DNA of 26,007 nt from a virus. Each line of letters opens with the position of its first letter. Position 1 is the stretch's first letter. Made by a program: the position numbers and the translations under genes. Positions 1,783 to 14,196 of the stretch are shown here, piece after piece. The notes beneath the pieces were generated by a model. It was given only the letters and a program-made list of their open reading frames with translations, ran no database searches and was not told the DNA's origin. The stretch lies in IMG/VR virus record IMGVR_UViG_3300017751_000189, positions 1-26,007 of that record; one strand, 5' to 3'.

Positions 1783-3360
1783 TTAACCCATTGCAAATGC
1801 CCGTTGCATAGCGGCAATACCGTTATTAGACGGGGCGTTAATAGTATTGTTGATTACAGTCGGATTGTTATTTGCTACTCTAATACCACCACCCGTTCCG
1901 CCGCCAGGAAGTGGTGAACCGCTTGGTATTCCACCACCAATATCCTGGAGTGCTCTTAACTGCCTTGGACTTAGATTTAAGCTGGTGGAGGCATCCTCTT
2001 CATCATCCTTAATCCAGTTTCTGATATTCTCGCTTGGGATCATATTAATTGCAGCGTCCATCAATGAATCCCCAATGTCCTTAAGAGTTTGCATCGTAAA
2101 GATATCCCCGAGCTTATCTGCGAGATCACCAAACCAGTCGAACATGTCATTAAAGGCATCCCCAACAGGTTTAAAGAAGGCTTTAATATCAACATCAAAT
2201 ACGTCCTGGAAGAAAGCCGCAAGGGTATCAAACCAGCCTTCAGCAAAATTAACAATGCCTTCCCAAATTTTACCAAACCCCTTTTTTATTTTTGCCTTGT
2301 CGAACGTAATAACGCCTACTATTACGTCAACTAATCCACCAAATATATCTTTTACACTTTGAATAAGTGTTTCAGTAAATTTCCCGATTTCTTTCGAATA
2401 GTTATCTAAACCTAAAAGTTCAGCGATTTTTGCTGGTATCCACGAAAAAATACGCAATAAGCTTCCTATCAATCCATCAAATACATCCATAATACCCTGC
2501 TTAATGCCTTCAATAATACCACCTTCTGAGTAGCCCCGCATAAACCCTTTAACAAAATCAACTATTCCTAGTATAATAGTAAGAGGCAAAAATAGTTTAC
2601 CTAATATCCTACCGATGCCTCCTACAAATCTGGTTACAAATTTAAATGGTCCTTTGGTTACGAAATCTTTAATCCTTTTAAAAATATTAGCTAATTTACT
2701 GAAGAAACCGCCCTTTCCTGAAAAAATTCCTGACAAAAGACTTCTGATCGAAGTCAATATCTTACTATTTTTAATCTTGTTAAAAATGTTGCTAATAAAT
2801 CCTACTAGCTTACTATTTTTGACATTATTAAACAAGTTACTAACACCTTTCGCAACCTTACTATTTTTAATCGTTTTAGTAATGGATTGGAACTTAGCTT
2901 TTAAAGTGGAAAACATATTAGCAACAGCTTGCCCGATCTTACTATTTTTAATCTTTAAACCAATTTTTTTAATTCCATTTTTTATGTTGGTAATAAGACC
3001 ACTAAATAATCTACCTAACTTACTCTTTTTAAGCTTCCCCCATAATATCTTAAAAAACTGAACAATATCAAGAAAAAGAGTGGACAGCAACCCGAGAGCT
3101 CCAGCTAAAAAACCAAAGCCTGAACCCTCTTTAGGAATTAAACCTTTTAAACCATTAAGGAGAGCATCGCTAATATTTTCAAGAGCATCTGTTATGTCTT
3201 GAAACATGGCTTTTTGCTCAATACTTCTCTCAAGCTCTTTAAGATCATTATTTTTCTGTTGATCGATAAGAGGCTTTGCGATATCTTTTGAATTTTGAAT
3301 CGCAACTTTTTGAGTTACATCTTCAAGATCTTTTCTATTGATAAAGGATTCGTCAGCCAT
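1783..3360 (-). CDS. Tail tape measure protein (gp29-like)
   Basis: A 525-residue protein recognised as a tape measure from composition, length and place rather than close similarity. It is rich in Lys, Ile, Phe and Gly, with a predicted helical, amphipathic middle. Two hydrophobic segments (about residues 80-105 and 250-273) could insert into the host membrane during DNA entry. Residues 110-210 hold five KNSK-type repeats spaced 27, 27, 16 and 16 residues apart. The C-terminus is Gly/Pro/Asn-rich. T4 gp29 has 590 residues. Tape measure genes usually follow the tail assembly chaperone genes, and this one follows gp26 and its frameshift extension, whose stop codon lies 8 bases inside it (ATGGCTGA). 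By length, the tail should be somewhat shorter than T4's. Confidence 0.8.
   Translation of the reverse strand: MADESFINRKDLEDVTQKVAIQNSKDIAKPLIDQQKNNDLKELERSIEQKAMFQDITDALENISDALLNGLKGLIPKEGSGFGFLAGALGLLSTLFLDIVQFFKILWGKLKKSKLGRLFSGLITNIKNGIKKIGLKIKNSKIGQAVANMFSTLKAKFQSITKTIKNSKVAKGVSNLFNNVKNSKLVGFISNIFNKIKNSKILTSIRSLLSGIFSGKGGFFSKLANIFKRIKDFVTKGPFKFVTRFVGGIGRILGKLFLPLTIILGIVDFVKGFMRGYSEGGIIEGIKQGIMDVFDGLIGSLLRIFSWIPAKIAELLGLDNYSKEIGKFTETLIQSVKDIFGGLVDVIVGVITFDKAKIKKGFGKIWEGIVNFAEGWFDTLAAFFQDVFDVDIKAFFKPVGDAFNDMFDWFGDLADKLGDIFTMQTLKDIGDSLMDAAINMIPSENIRNWIKDDEEDASTSLNLSPRQLRALQDIGGGIPSGSPLPGGGTGGGIRVANNNPTVINNTINAPSNNGIAAMQRAFAMG
2761..3033 (-). repeat. Five direct repeats in the tape measure gene
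   Basis: On the plus strand the 15-mer CTTACTATTTTTAAT, or a close variant, occurs at 2761-2775, 2809-2823, 2857-2871, 2938-2952 and 3019-3033. Three copies are identical; the copies at 2809 and 3019 differ at two or three positions. Spacings are 48, 48, 81 and 81 bases, all whole codons. On the coding strand each copy encodes I/V/L-K-N/K-S-K at residues 196, 180, 164, 137 and 110. The repeats are therefore in-frame protein modules of 27 or 16 residues. Confidence 0.9.
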
Positions 3361-3538
3361 TGTTTTTTTGGTGTCTTAGTTCTTCTTCTTTAATGTGGTC
3401 TTTTAATAATGTAATGTAAATCTCCCTTTCCCATGGAATCATATTGTCAAGTTCTGTTAAGCTGTATTTATGATGTTGTACAAGCGAAAACTGAATATGA
3501 TAATAATTTTCTAATGAGTTATGAGAAAGGGCTAGACA
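3353..3538 (-). CDS. Frameshift-accessed tail assembly chaperone extension (T-like, gp51 position)
   Basis: A 61-codon frame fills what looks like a gap between gp26 and the tape measure gene. It reads CLALSHNSLENYY, then HIQFSLVQHHKYSLTELDN, then MIPWEREIYITLLKDHIKEE and a basic end, stopping at TGA 3355-3353, 8 bases inside the tape measure gene. Its frame has a stop (TAA, 3550-3548) just upstream and no ATG, GTG or TTG before an internal ATG that would leave only 29 residues. It is in the -1 frame relative to gp26 and overlaps its end, so the likely product is a 297-residue fusion: gp26 residues 1-236 plus these 61. The MIPWEREIYITLL segment resembles the short C-terminal domain of tail assembly chaperones such as lambda GT. 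T4 has gene 51 in the equivalent slot; homology to it is not established. Confidence 0.7.
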   Translation of the reverse strand, partial: CLALSHNSLENYYHIQFSLVQHHKYSLTELDNMIPWEREIYITLLKDHIKEEELRHQKNNG

Positions 3539-4245
3539 AAAAAATCGTTAAGGCCATTTAGCATCCTTGTTCTTTCTTTGCCCTTTGAACATTTATATTT
3601 AATTTCTTTTTTAAGTGCTGGAATACTATCAACCCATTCTTTGATTTTCATAACTTGCTCACTACTTAAAGAATCAATGAATTTTTCTATTTCTTTAGGA
3701 GATGCATCTGCTAATGGATAAACCGTTGCATTGTCGTAAACACTCTCAATCACGCTTGTCAATGATTGAACAATAGTGTCATTATTTTTAGTATTTTTAG
3801 ATGCCTTTTCGGCTTCTTTAAGACCTGGAGCTTTAAGCGTTATACCAACATCGTCGGTTAGCTGTACTTTATTATCTTTTTTCTCGCCGGTTGAAACTTT
3901 TATCTCTGAAAGATCTATTGTTAATTCTATAGTTTCATTGCACTCGTTACATTCAAAACTAATTTTAGATGTTTCACCAACGCTTTTTGAACGAATTTGT
4001 AGTAGAATATACTCAAGATCGCTCATAACTAACGAATAAAGATCTAATGAACCAAATGTACAGGAATTTATTACGTCCTTCATTGCTGAAATCATATTCC
4101 GAGTACTTTTTGTTTCTTGTGCAATCATTAAAACCTTTTCTTCCTTTACAAGGAAAGGTCTGAACTCAATTGTTTCATTCGTTGATGGAACAGTTAAAAA
4201 ATATTTTGGTGATTCAATTACTGGTAATGTCATAATGTTTTTCAT
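3532..4245 (-). CDS. 26: Baseplate hub / tail assembly protein gp26
   Basis: A 237-residue member of the T4 gp26 family (T4 gp26 has 208 residues). gp26 is needed for baseplate hub assembly in T4. Seen here: the N-terminal block ESPKYFLTVPSTNETIEFRP followed by FLVKEEKVLM, a Cys pair at C99/C102 (FECNEC), and the C-terminal block KYKCSKGKERTRMLNGLNDF. A second Cys pair expected for a zinc ribbon is incomplete: C219 is followed three residues later by Gly222 instead of Cys. The gene lies 8 bases after the tail-tube-like gene and ends with a seven-T slippery tract that would extend a minor product by 61 residues. In that reading gp26 is the counterpart of lambda gpG. The start ATG at 4245 has no Shine-Dalgarno motif. 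Confidence 0.85.
   Translation of the reverse strand: MKNIMTLPVIESPKYFLTVPSTNETIEFRPFLVKEEKVLMIAQETKSTRNMISAMKDVINSCTFGSLDLYSLVMSDLEYILLQIRSKSVGETSKISFECNECNETIELTIDLSEIKVSTGEKKDNKVQLTDDVGITLKAPGLKEAEKASKNTKNNDTIVQSLTSVIESVYDNATVYPLADASPKEIEKFIDSLSSEQVMKIKEWVDSIPALKKEIKYKCSKGKERTRMLNGLNDFFV
3538..3544 (-). other. Putative -1 ribosomal frameshift site, T TTT TTT
   Basis: On the minus strand the gp26 end reads GAT TTT TTT GTC TAG. The last T of GAT plus the two TTT codons form a seven-T heptamer in the exact X XXY YYZ phase for a -1 slip. The frame-0 stop (TAG, 3534-3532) comes one codon later. The -1 frame is closed by TAA at 3550-3548 upstream, so the shift must occur in the few bases that hold the heptamer. 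I see no clear downstream hairpin. An AAGGA motif about 19 bases upstream could act as a weak internal Shine-Dalgarno stimulator. Confidence 0.7.
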
Positions 4246-4252
4246 TTATAAT

Positions 4253-4909
4253 TTATAATAGCCGCTTAAGTATTTTAAGCTTGTTGCCAGTGCTATTTAT
4301 CATCGATCTAATAGGTGCTTCAGTCTCAAAAAAGTCGTACGTCATAGTTACACTTACGAATGCAACTGAATCAGTACTATCGTTGCTGAGGTCTACGCTG
4401 TTAACTGCTATAGGATATGCATCTCTTAAACGAACAGCGTACATGGGTGTATTATCTTTATTTAATTGTTGAATAAAAACGTCGGTTTTGTATGTCTCGT
4501 CGTACTCCACCAATTGAGATTCTTGATTAATAATAGAATTTTGCCACTTATCAAAAGTTTTCTTAGCATAAAAATCTCCTGTAATTAAAAACGAAAATTC
4601 AACATCTTCTTGAATAGAGCTTTGTGGATATTTCCTTGGATTAGCACCGTATGCATCATAATCACCTGTCATAATTAGTTTACCTGGCAAAGAACAAGAT
4701 TGGCATAATACGCTTATATCTCTAGGGTCGTTGATTAGCGGTCCGTTTCCAATTAATGCACCTAAATTTAAAAATGCTGCAGAGGGAGGAGTAATAGTAA
4801 CAGCAAATCTGTTTGTAGTGGCTATACCATTATGTTTTCCAATAGTTGCTTTAAACTCGTCAATTGTGACAGGGTTAATTGTATTTTTAATGTCGTCTAG
4901 TAGTCCCAT
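4253..4909 (-). CDS. Tail-tube-fold baseplate protein (gp19/gp54-like)
   Basis: A 218-residue protein whose blocks align in order with T4 tail tube gp19: NRFAVTITPP, the LCQSCSLPGKL segment (gp19 has a CKATALP segment there), a FSFLITGDFYAKKTFDKWQN strand-helix, TDVFIQQLNKDN, YAVRLRDAYPIAVNSVDL, and a final strand SVTMTYDFFE. It is longer than gp19 (163 residues) with extra residues at both ends. T4 gp48 and gp54, which cap the baseplate and start the tube, have the same fold. Since gp48 is encoded separately at 5993 and this gene sits between gp4 and gp26, a gp54-like tube initiator role is most likely. It could instead be a tube paralogue. It begins 6 bases after the preceding stop. Confidence 0.7.
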   Translation of the reverse strand: MGLLDDIKNTINPVTIDEFKATIGKHNGIATTNRFAVTITPPSAAFLNLGALIGNGPLINDPRDISVLCQSCSLPGKLIMTGDYDAYGANPRKYPQSSIQEDVEFSFLITGDFYAKKTFDKWQNSIINQESQLVEYDETYKTDVFIQQLNKDNTPMYAVRLRDAYPIAVNSVDLSNDSTDSVAFVSVTMTYDFFETEAPIRSMINSTGNKLKILKRLL

Positions 4910-10722: not shown

Positions 10723-13700
10723 ATGGCAACGACAATTAATCACCCTTATCAAACGAATATTCTAAGTGCTACAGGTTCTGCCGAAGTATTAGGGCGTGGT
10801 AGTAATACGTATACTGATACATGGTCTCATTCAAGCGTATTAACACACTTAGAAGATTGGGATAAGTTTAGTAACTTTCCTACTGCAGTACGTACTGGCA
10901 ATTTTGTTTGGGTTTTACAGCAAATTTACGGTAGTAATAACGAAGCTATTTGGATTTTGGCCGATGTTGTACCTGATCCATCTGTTGATCGACAATTCGG
11001 TAATAATATTGCATATCCCGAAATACCAGACCACGTTAAATACCAGTTTGATTTTACTGCAAACGCAGCTGCTTATAAGGCAGGTGTTGATAGTATTAAT
11101 ACTGATACCACTGCAGGCGGTTATGACATATCAATTGACGGAACACCACGATACGCTTTTACAATAACAGATCATCAAACCGCCAAGGCAAATGGTGATA
11201 CACAATCTTATTTTGACTTGTCAACTCGCCAATATAAAGAAATAGTTTATAATGGTAGCAATGGTGGGGGCTTTATTACTACAGATACTGCACATATTCC
11301 ACGTTTATTCGGATGGGGATCAAAACAAAGATTATTGCAAACTGATAACTCAGCATTTAATGTGCCGTCTGACGGAAATGATTTCATATACAACTTATGG
11401 GCACCATTTGCAACAAAGGCACAATTCGATACGTTATATGGTACAGAAGATGCATGGATTCATAGTACTGTTAGCGCTTCACACCACGTTTTGTTTGATC
11501 AAGTTTATATTAAAACTGGAAGCAACGGCAACCGCACAGTAGTTTATAATGAAGACACAGTAATAGCTACAAGCGAACCACGCGTTTATCCATTCGCATT
11601 ACCTACGTTCACATCTAATACGTTGTTTCAAGAAATACCGGGTGATACGACTGGCGATGGCATCGATAATACACCAAGCTTCGAAGATGCATTAGCACTT
11701 ACTGCTGTTGCTTCTATAATAGAGTGCGATGGTTTTCCAGGTGACTTAATACCGGGCTTAGACATGGAAGCCATCAACAAAAAGCTCAAGGCTGCAAAGG
11801 CTGGTATAGAGTCAGCCATAGACTCAACAGGCCTTTTGGATTTGGGAGAAAAGCTCGAGGGGTTTAAGGACGGTCTATTGGACAAGTTTCCAAAGGCGAT
11901 TGAAGTACAAAATTTTATAGAAGCTATCGCTGATTTGGATCTAAACAATCTTGCAAAGGAAGGGATAGAAGCTATAAAGGGTAGTTTAAAGGAAGAGTGG
12001 AGAGAGGCCATTGATGAAGTAGATGAATTCGTAGATGGTATAATTGATAACATCGCAGATTTTGACATATGTTCTCTGACTGGCCTGAAAGGTAAGACAG
12101 GCGACGACGGTAAATTGGTGAAGAAGCCCGAGACTCCAAGTATACCTGATAAGGCTATTGAGGCTCCTAAGCAGAGTTCGTATGCTTCTACACAGTCAAA
12201 GGGTACAGCTCAGACTAAGGCGGCGGCGTCAGCAGGTATTACTCCTAGAGACATTGAGAATGCAAACAATGCATTAGAAAAAAATTGGCAGGATTTAAGT
12301 GAAGATGCTCAATTTTCATGGGGGAGGAAAATTGAGGTTGGTCCTCAGGAAGGCCCTCGTCGGACTTTCTTCTCTGATGAAATCGAGTGGGAGGGAGTGC
12401 TAGATGAGAATGGAAAATTAGTTCCTAAAGTAGATGCGTATGGAAACTGGATCCGGACGGATGGAGTTGGTGGTGGAGGTCAAGCTGAGTTCGCTGGTGG
12501 AGGATCAGAATTCTCTTCCCAGCCCGAGGCCAGTTTCAGAGACGGACTTGGCGGTGAAGTTAAGTTTCACGGCTCTGGCATTGGAACGGTATACGATAGA
12601 AAGAAAAGGCCAGAGCTTTATGAAAATGGCGCCGGCGGTGGTCGGTATACTGGTGTTCCCGTAAATCCCTACGATCTCGATCCGGATCGGGACGCAAAAA
12701 AGGCAGGAACCGGACCCCTATATAAGGGCTTTCTGGGGTTCCCGAATCTTGGGAGAACTGGAGCAGATTTAGTCTTACCTCCAGACGTTCCAGGTATAAC
12801 TAGTCCACTCACGCCTCCAAGCGTTCCAGGTATAACTAATACTGATCCAGAAGTTCAACAACGCGTTGATGATTTTATAAACTTGGAGGGAGGAGGAAGC
12901 CCCGGGGCAGCAAACAAGTTGTCGGAACAGCCTGTATCTAAGACCGGTCCAGAGTGGGAAAAACGCCTCCAAGAAATTAAGGCTAGTAAAGATTGGCAAA
13001 CTTACATAACAGCGTTCAATAATAAAGTTCATCCCATGGACAAGTATAGTCTCCCAGGTGATAGTGGGCTCAATTCCCGCGGTGGTATGTCGCAGGAAAG
13101 TTTAGATAAACTCGGGAGGGATATCCAGCAAGTAACAATGGGTCTATATATTTACCGCCAGTGGAAAGCACGATTTAATTACTATAAAGAGAAATTAAAG
13201 AATTCTATGCTTGTAGACGGGAAACGTGGAGAATACTTCCCGTCTGCTGACTACGATATTACGGATAAATGGAAGACTTACAACGAAGCCTACCCTGGAA
13301 GTCTGGTGGCTCCGGGTTCTTCGTTTTATCTTGATGACATTGTCTCAATGAATCAAACAGGTTTTGCTGATGAGTTTTTCGGCACTACTATGACTGAAAA
13401 AGCCGCCAATACAGTAGGTGGTATGGATAATGAATTTATTACTGCTATCAAAAAATATTTCTTCAGTAAAGAAGGTGTAAGACTACAACAAGAAATAATG
13501 ATGGGTCAAGATCCACCATTCGATGAAATTATTCAAAAGAAACTTCTAGATGCTCTTGTACCTAATGATAATGAAGGTGATCCGGTCACCGATAATGTTG
13601 CACCGATTAAAGGATACGACCCAAAATCAAAGAAAGATATTCCTGGTAGAGTTATAAACATATCAGCTACTGAGGGTGCATCTCGCTCTGGGCCGGTTCA

Positions 13701-14196
13701 AACTGATCTCTTGAATATATTAAAAAGATCTGCTAAACAAGCAAATTACACTATCGAGATTTTTTCAGGTGGACAAGTACCAGCAGCTAAGGGAGGTATA
13801 CATGGCGTCAATCGCTATGGCAATACTAAAAGACATGACGATGGATATGCCGCTGATATATACACATATAATGAAAATGGCCGGCAGCTTAGAGTGCAGT
13901 CAGATCCAAATCATAAGGACACTCTTGCTATAAGAGACTTTATAATAATACTGCTAAAGAATGGTATTACTTCTGTAGGAGCCGATGATGATTATATGAA
14001 TGGGGATCTCCACGTAGATATTGCAATACCTAGTAAAGCCACGCCAATAGCACATTGGGGAAAAGGGCCCGGAGGCCTTAAATCCGAGTACGCTCCGGCG
14101 TGGTTAACAACAATATTTAATGGTAACTACGATAAACAGTATACTCAAATGCTACTTAAAAAAGAATTAGAAAGAAGAAAAAATAACACAGGGTAA
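10723..14196 (+). CDS. Large hub-associated protein with C-terminal M15-type peptidase domain
   Basis: A 1157-residue mosaic protein. Residues 1-330 are beta-rich and unrecognised. Residues 345-460 are acidic and helical, with regularly spaced D/E-K segments. Residues 580-720 are Gly/Pro-rich with a 12-residue repeat (PPDVPGIT / PPSVPGIT). Residues 750-960 are unrecognised. Residues 975-1157 look like a LAS (M15-family) metallopeptidase: RHDDGYAAD gives H1038 and D1045 (HxxGxAxD motif), and GDLHVDI gives H1097, the three zinc ligands expected. Such enzymes cut peptide bonds in peptidoglycan. It starts 4 bases after the lysozyme-less gp5, with one of the few clear Shine-Dalgarno sites here (AGGAG, 9 bases before ATG). 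Likely a tail-tip wall-degrading protein; the rest of its role is unknown. Confidence 0.8.
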   Translation: MATTINHPYQTNILSATGSAEVLGRGSNTYTDTWSHSSVLTHLEDWDKFSNFPTAVRTGNFVWVLQQIYGSNNEAIWILADVVPDPSVDRQFGNNIAYPEIPDHVKYQFDFTANAAAYKAGVDSINTDTTAGGYDISIDGTPRYAFTITDHQTAKANGDTQSYFDLSTRQYKEIVYNGSNGGGFITTDTAHIPRLFGWGSKQRLLQTDNSAFNVPSDGNDFIYNLWAPFATKAQFDTLYGTEDAWIHSTVSASHHVLFDQVYIKTGSNGNRTVVYNEDTVIATSEPRVYPFALPTFTSNTLFQEIPGDTTGDGIDNTPSFEDALALTAVASIIECDGFPGDLIPGLDMEAINKKLKAAKAGIESAIDSTGLLDLGEKLEGFKDGLLDKFPKAIEVQNFIEAIADLDLNNLAKEGIEAIKGSLKEEWREAIDEVDEFVDGIIDNIADFDICSLTGLKGKTGDDGKLVKKPETPSIPDKAIEAPKQSSYASTQSKGTAQTKAAASAGITPRDIENANNALEKNWQDLSEDAQFSWGRKIEVGPQEGPRRTFFSDEIEWEGVLDENGKLVPKVDAYGNWIRTDGVGGGGQAEFAGGGSEFSSQPEASFRDGLGGEVKFHGSGIGTVYDRKKRPELYENGAGGGRYTGVPVNPYDLDPDRDAKKAGTGPLYKGFLGFPNLGRTGADLVLPPDVPGITSPLTPPSVPGITNTDPEVQQRVDDFINLEGGGSPGAANKLSEQPVSKTGPEWEKRLQEIKASKDWQTYITAFNNKVHPMDKYSLPGDSGLNSRGGMSQESLDKLGRDIQQVTMGLYIYRQWKARFNYYKEKLKNSMLVDGKRGEYFPSADYDITDKWKTYNEAYPGSLVAPGSSFYLDDIVSMNQTGFADEFFGTTMTEKAANTVGGMDNEFITAIKKYFFSKEGVRLQQEIMMGQDPPFDEIIQKKLLDALVPNDNEGDPVTDNVAPIKGYDPKSKKDIPGRVINISATEGASRSGPVQTDLLNILKRSAKQANYTIEIFSGGQVPAAKGGIHGVNRYGNTKRHDDGYAADIYTYNENGRQLRVQSDPNHKDTLAIRDFIIILLKNGITSVGADDDYMNGDLHVDIAIPSKATPIAHWGKGPGGLKSEYAPAWLTTIFNGNYDKQYTQMLLKKELERRKNNTG
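12778..12838 (+). repeat. 25-bp direct repeat, 36 bp apart
   Basis: CCTCCA + 2 variable bases + CGTTCCAGGTATAACTA occurs at 12778-12802 and 12814-12838. The offset of 36 bases is 12 codons, so it encodes two copies of PP-x-VPGIT in the Pro-rich linker of the 1157-residue protein. It looks like a recent in-frame duplication. Confidence 0.85.

Follow-up and report, generated by a model that had tools for sequence, protein, structure and literature searches.

Gene order and slippery heptamer in the window

The window analyzed here is a stretch of 26,007 nucleotides, positions 1 to 26,007 of the IMG/VR record IMGVR_UViG_3300017751_000189, and is a contig from an uncultured marine T4-like phage. 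Gene 26 lies between a gene of the tail tube family and the tape measure gene. The features around its 3' end are as follows:

4253..4909, minus strand: gene of the tail tube family, upstream of gp26 (PF06841, E 4.4e-8; phrog_45, E 1.4e-35)
3532..4245, minus strand: gp26 ORF, a TAC-N-like short form of 237 aa, T4_baseplate family (Pfam PF12322, PHROG 150, AlphaFold2 model)
3548..3550, minus strand: upstream stop of the -1 frame, a TAA shortly before the heptamer (sequence)
3538..3544, minus strand: slippery heptamer T_TTT_TTT, one codon (GTC) ahead of the gp26 stop TAG (sequence)
3353..3538, minus strand: -1 frame extension, gp51 domain; 61 codons at 3538..3356 and TGA at 3355..3353 (PHROG 634 and the end of PHROG 150)
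1783..3360, minus strand: tape measure gene, 525 aa, whose start overlaps the end of the -1 frame (phrog_4200, E 7.5e-15, among the PHROG tape-measure families)

The 3' end of gp26 in the window reads GAT TTT TTT GTC TAG, and the heptamer is in phase as X_XXY_YYZ. Closed upstream by the TAA, the -1 frame runs for 61 codons whose translation begins with CLALSHN and ends with KNNG, and its TGA is located 8 bases inside the tape measure ORF (ATG 3360..3358). No ATG, GTG or TTG is present in this frame before residue 14 of the extension, and the first ATG is found at residue 34. Joined at the slip site, 236 residues of gp26 and the 61 residues of the extension give a predicted gp26-gp51 fusion of 297 aa. 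An earlier note on this DNA had described the seven Ts in phase, the -1 frame between its two stops, the lack of a usable start before an internal ATG and the length of the fusion, and the coordinates agree with it on each of these points.

A second IMG/VR record (L002) matches the window exactly over 900 nt, the T count included. This identical record, and the presence of the motif in 89 of 89 related loci (see below), exclude a one-off error of base calling as the source of the T count. In the window, the -1 frame overlaps the start of the tape measure gene, and some relatives have an extra ORF in between. Elsewhere in the window, at 10723-14196, a protein of 1157 residues without a Pfam match is encoded among the baseplate genes. 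By eye, its C-terminal part (HDDGYAADI...NGDLHVDI) resembles a peptidase-type metal site.

Family identity of gp26 and the extension

The window gp26 matches the Pfam family PF12322 (T4_baseplate) with an E of 5.3e-57, over positions 2-218 of the 219 in the profile, and PHROG 150 with an E of 2.5e-59. The peptide encoded in the -1 frame falls into PHROG 634 ('baseplate hub assembly catalyst', gp51) with an E of 2.7e-28 (profile 56-116 of 121), and it also matches the far end of PHROG 150, the gp26 family itself (231-281 of 282, E 7.3e-7). Judged by these profiles, the 61-residue extension is gp51 and no new domain. It had previously been called an unannotated 61-codon chaperone domain. The coding frame stands, but the domain is not an uncharacterized one. 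Many cyanophage annotations list gp51 as an ORF of its own. A match to the extension is found in 621 public phage records; annotators either omit it or list it as gp51 or hypothetical, mostly with an internal start.

The AlphaFold2 models of the window gp26 and of a T4-type gp51 have a mean pLDDT of 91.5 and 90.7, respectively. Among solved structures, neither protein had a match, by profile or by the fold of the models. Characterized tail chaperones such as lambda G and HK97 gp13 are highly diverse, and the lack of a match does not rule out kinship with them. The matches in BFVD are gp26-family proteins and unnamed phage proteins, and the named ones are mostly from the gp26 family.

T4-type gp51 consists of a gp26-like protein (PF12322, E 3.9e-52) followed by the extension, with PHROG 150 matching over residues 3-248. 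Comparison of the gp26 and gp51 profiles resulted in a probability of 97.4 (E 1.1e-11), and in the alignment of the extension profile to gp51 the match begins at the residue that follows the junction. Together with the PHROG 634 match, this bears out the involvement of gp51, which had been raised as a possibility. T4 gp26 itself ends with GAG TTC TTT GAG, without the heptamer. Both genes are also present in Krischvirus, 44RR, Thanatos and RB43, and Vibrio phi-Grn1, likewise a member of the Straboviridae, carries the frameshift form. A tree built on the shared domain places all rows of the frameshift type, including the Ackermannviridae-type ones, on the same side (94/93) and unites gp51 in a single group (100/98); the gp26 proteins of RB43 and 44RR are long branches of which the placement is unsure. 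The tree is consistent with a duplication in the T4 lineage. T4 gp26 also weakly matches the family of gp28 (PHROG 1140, E 9.4e-4), which is encoded at 13349-13882 of the T4 record (L006), and gp28 might, on this similarity, belong to the gp26/gp51 family as a third and diverged member.

Conservation of the junction

Eighty viral contigs were retrieved by a pattern near the gp26 N-terminus, blind to the junction, with gp26 identities of 34-62%. The window, these contigs and 8 named phages make up 89 loci, which are related, and counts over them are not counts of independent events. The sequence NNT TTT TTY (TTT or TTC) is kept at the end of gp26 in all 89. The distance from the heptamer to the gp26 stop is 0 or 1 codon in 79 loci, 8 codons in 8 loci and 2 or 3 codons in the remaining 2. 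All 89 loci use TTT for the first Phe (background 71%), preceded without exception by a codon with T as its last base. In every locus, the -1 frame comprises 60-71 residues of one family, conserved from FF onward. The earlier note had expected relatives to have a conserved slippery heptamer and a conserved -1 frame ending in MxPWExExY; both were found in 89 of 89 loci, and in the window the motif is present as MIPWEREIY.

In dinucleotide shuffles of these regions, the -1 frame is open for 58 codons in 1.0% of the cases (46/4450), compared to 89/89 observed. Past the gp26 stop, 271, 148 and 532 substitutions are found at positions 1, 2 and 3 of the -1 frame, respectively (30 non-overlapping pairs). 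With this excess at the third position, the -1 frame behaves as a coding frame and, by its substitution pattern, is coding sequence.

Two near-identical records of a Stenotrophomonas phage (L166 and L167, 2740-2760) differ in the slippery tract, in which L167 has one T fewer. Due to this difference, gene callers would draw gp26 differently in the two records. The record of Rhizobium phage RL38J1 (1-250) begins inside gp26, in an annotated repeat, so that parts of the gene fall at both ends of the record. The start of this record adjoins the slip site on the upstream side, and the site is the variant T_TTT_TTG.

Possible stimulatory signals

Glu-Gly, encoded by GAG GGN, is a frequent residue pair ahead of the site in the relatives. 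Where Glu is present, GAG is used 26 times and GAA 16 times, compared to a GAG share of 25% elsewhere in gp26. Of the 8-mers, the one that begins 15 nt ahead of the heptamer pairs most strongly with the anti-SD, with a mean of -5.5 kcal/mol vs -4.4 kcal/mol in synonymous shuffles. In the window, the SD-like element is weak where it would normally be placed (at -15, about -1.5 kcal/mol; at -26, -5.2), and an AGGA is located farther upstream.

For the 60 nt after the site, the mean z is -0.94, compared to -0.28 in a control region inside gp26, and the window has a z of -0.4; no consensus RNA structure was found over 86 loci. On these results, a downstream stimulatory RNA structure was rejected.

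The Ackermannviridae variant

In Ackermannviridae (Vi01, KpS110 and IMG/VR relatives), gp26 ends with GAR ATT TTC ATY TAA and is without the T_TTT_TTY heptamer. A homologous -1 extension is present in these phages, which scored above every shuffled decoy, with an E of 0.0002-0.0013 when the search was scaled to 1000 sequences (Vi01, L101, 2780-2960; L107; L148-L165). No gene is annotated in this stretch in Vi01 and KpS110. In Vibrio phage D524 (L104), gp26 ends with CTT TTC AAG TAA and the -1 peptide looks similar; it did not pass the profile search that the Ackermannviridae extensions passed.

It is tentatively proposed, at somewhat less than even odds, that the slip is tuned throughout the family by a selected SD-like GAGGG, and that the heptamer has been lost and the -1 extension kept in Ackermannviridae and D524. 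If true, the long form in these phages would result from another event, for example slippage of a single codon on T_TTC, or re-initiation at TAATK. The ratio problem would then have three solutions within one chaperone family, namely a canonical slip, a non-canonical event and gene duplication (T4). The remaining interest of the locus lies in the upstream stimulator and in this variant.

Proposed mechanism and alternative explanations

A -1 programmed frameshift yielding both gp26 and gp26-gp51 is the best reading of the locus, with a probability of about 0.93. The slip site is present, the coding -1 frame is conserved from FF onward, and an in-frame version of the fusion exists as T4-type gp51. 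In the proposed mechanism, a -1 slip would take place on T_TTT_TTT, at the 3' terminus of gene 26. Most ribosomes would terminate at TAG, resulting in gp26 of 237 aa, and a minority, with the P and A sites occupied by the Phe codons, would shift by one base toward the 5' end, resulting in the 297-aa gp26-gp51. By analogy with lambda G/GT and T4 genetics, both forms together would act as a tail (hub/tape-measure) assembly chaperone pair that is absent from the virion, and the gp51 part would probably touch the tape measure protein. In a frameshifted pair of this kind, the fusion would be expected at a few percent and would be required for tail assembly. The pair likely works as the lambda G/GT tail chaperones do, a link based on gene order, slip architecture and T4 genetics. 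In the window phage, slippage, its efficiency and a function as chaperone are inferred. Weighing against this reading are the weak SD-like element of the window, the lack of a conserved RNA structure downstream and the lack of a match to any known tail chaperone among solved structures.

The extension could also be made as a separate small gp51 protein, through a start of its own or through coupled re-initiation after the gp26 stop. It is annotated as a separate ORF in S-SSM5, HTVC008M, DLP6, phiN3, Cr30 and Cygsa01, and in Cr30, Mendera and Cygsa01 an ATG overlaps the gp26 stop, where re-initiation is also possible. Between the upstream stop and residue 14, the -1 frame contains an ATG in 15 of the 89 loci, and coupled re-initiation could add product in some of these. 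However, the same stretch is without ATG in 74 loci and without any ATG, GTG or TTG in 57, the window included. Since conservation already begins at FF, ahead of any start that could be used, it favors the fusion, and in T4-type phages the gp51 domain is always joined to a gp26-like part. Re-initiation as a general explanation was rejected, as most loci, including the window, do not have a start codon for it, and it is considered very improbable. The probability that the two frames are one gene broken by a real or sequencing frameshift in the T run is negligible. Homopolymer indels do occur, as in the Stenotrophomonas record L167, but the identical second record of the window and the conservation of this architecture across all 89 divergent loci, some of them from named and isolated phages, rule this out.

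A different role for the same products was also considered, in which the frameshift is real and gp26 and gp26-gp51 are a structural hub component instead of a tail chaperone pair. Genes of the gp26 family are annotated as 'baseplate hub subunit', and some T4 genetic work places gp26 in the hub (PMC3004832). The same 2010 review, however, lists T4 gp26 and gp51 among the hub assembly chaperones and describes gp51 as essential, of unknown function and absent from the particle. The gene is also located directly upstream of the tape measure gene, as in the G/GT architecture, and a structural role is regarded as unlikely.

Programmed frameshifting into a gp26-gp51 chaperone would correct the annotation of hundreds of records from cyanophages, pelagiphages, and Vibrio and Rhizobium phages. 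The 'gp51' ORFs and the blank gaps after gp26 would mostly be the C-terminal half of a frameshift product, and the extension would mostly not be a gene with its own start.

Prior literature and comparison with known systems

The observation is right and the mechanism is well supported; this kind of frameshift is already known, and the window phage is a further case. The abstract of the study of Vladimirov, Gautam and Davidson from 2022 (Virology 566:9-15) reportedly names genes 26 and 51 and describes frameshifting as conserved in several T4-like groups. As cited in the PRFect paper (PMC10885494), this study describes T4-like phages in which a short chaperone gene occurs together with a long, fused one and, as cited in the Adele paper (PMC12846349), poly-T slippery sites in the TAC-N genes of T4-like phages. 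A literature search on gp26, gp51 and frameshifting found no direct account, and the prior work was reached through these citing papers. The small additions made here are the upstream SD-like element in many relatives, the finding of no conserved downstream structure and the Ackermannviridae variant.

The -1 frameshift of Escherichia coli dnaX has an SD-like stimulator about 10 nt upstream of the site. Many relatives of the window phage resemble this system, with a GAGGG that ends about 9 nt before the heptamer. Unlike the dnaX type, the SD-like element is weak in the window and no downstream hairpin was found.

The slippery heptamer of lambda is G_GGA_AAG. The window resembles lambda gpG/gpGT (Xu, Hendrix & Duda 2004) in having a short ORF with a -1 slippery site near its 3' end, a C-terminal extension and the tape measure gene immediately downstream. 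It differs in its heptamer, T_TTT_TTT, in the larger gp26 and in the CxxC motifs present in the gp26 of many relatives. The link of gp26 and gp51 to the G/GT family, as drawn in the earlier note, thus holds for gene order, slip architecture and T4 genetics and, going by the citing papers, is already in the literature; it does not extend to kinship in sequence or fold, for which no match to a solved structure was found.

In T4, as in the window, the same extension is joined to a gp26-like domain at the same residue. Unlike the window, T4 has genes 26 and 51 as two separate genes without a frameshift, with a gp26 lacking the extension beside a complete gp51. The window also resembles the gp26 (TAC-N) and gp51 (TAC-NC) of Vladimirov et al. 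2022, which, as represented in the citing papers, belong to the same families and have the same -1 poly-T arrangement in several T4-like groups, here found in an uncultured marine contig.
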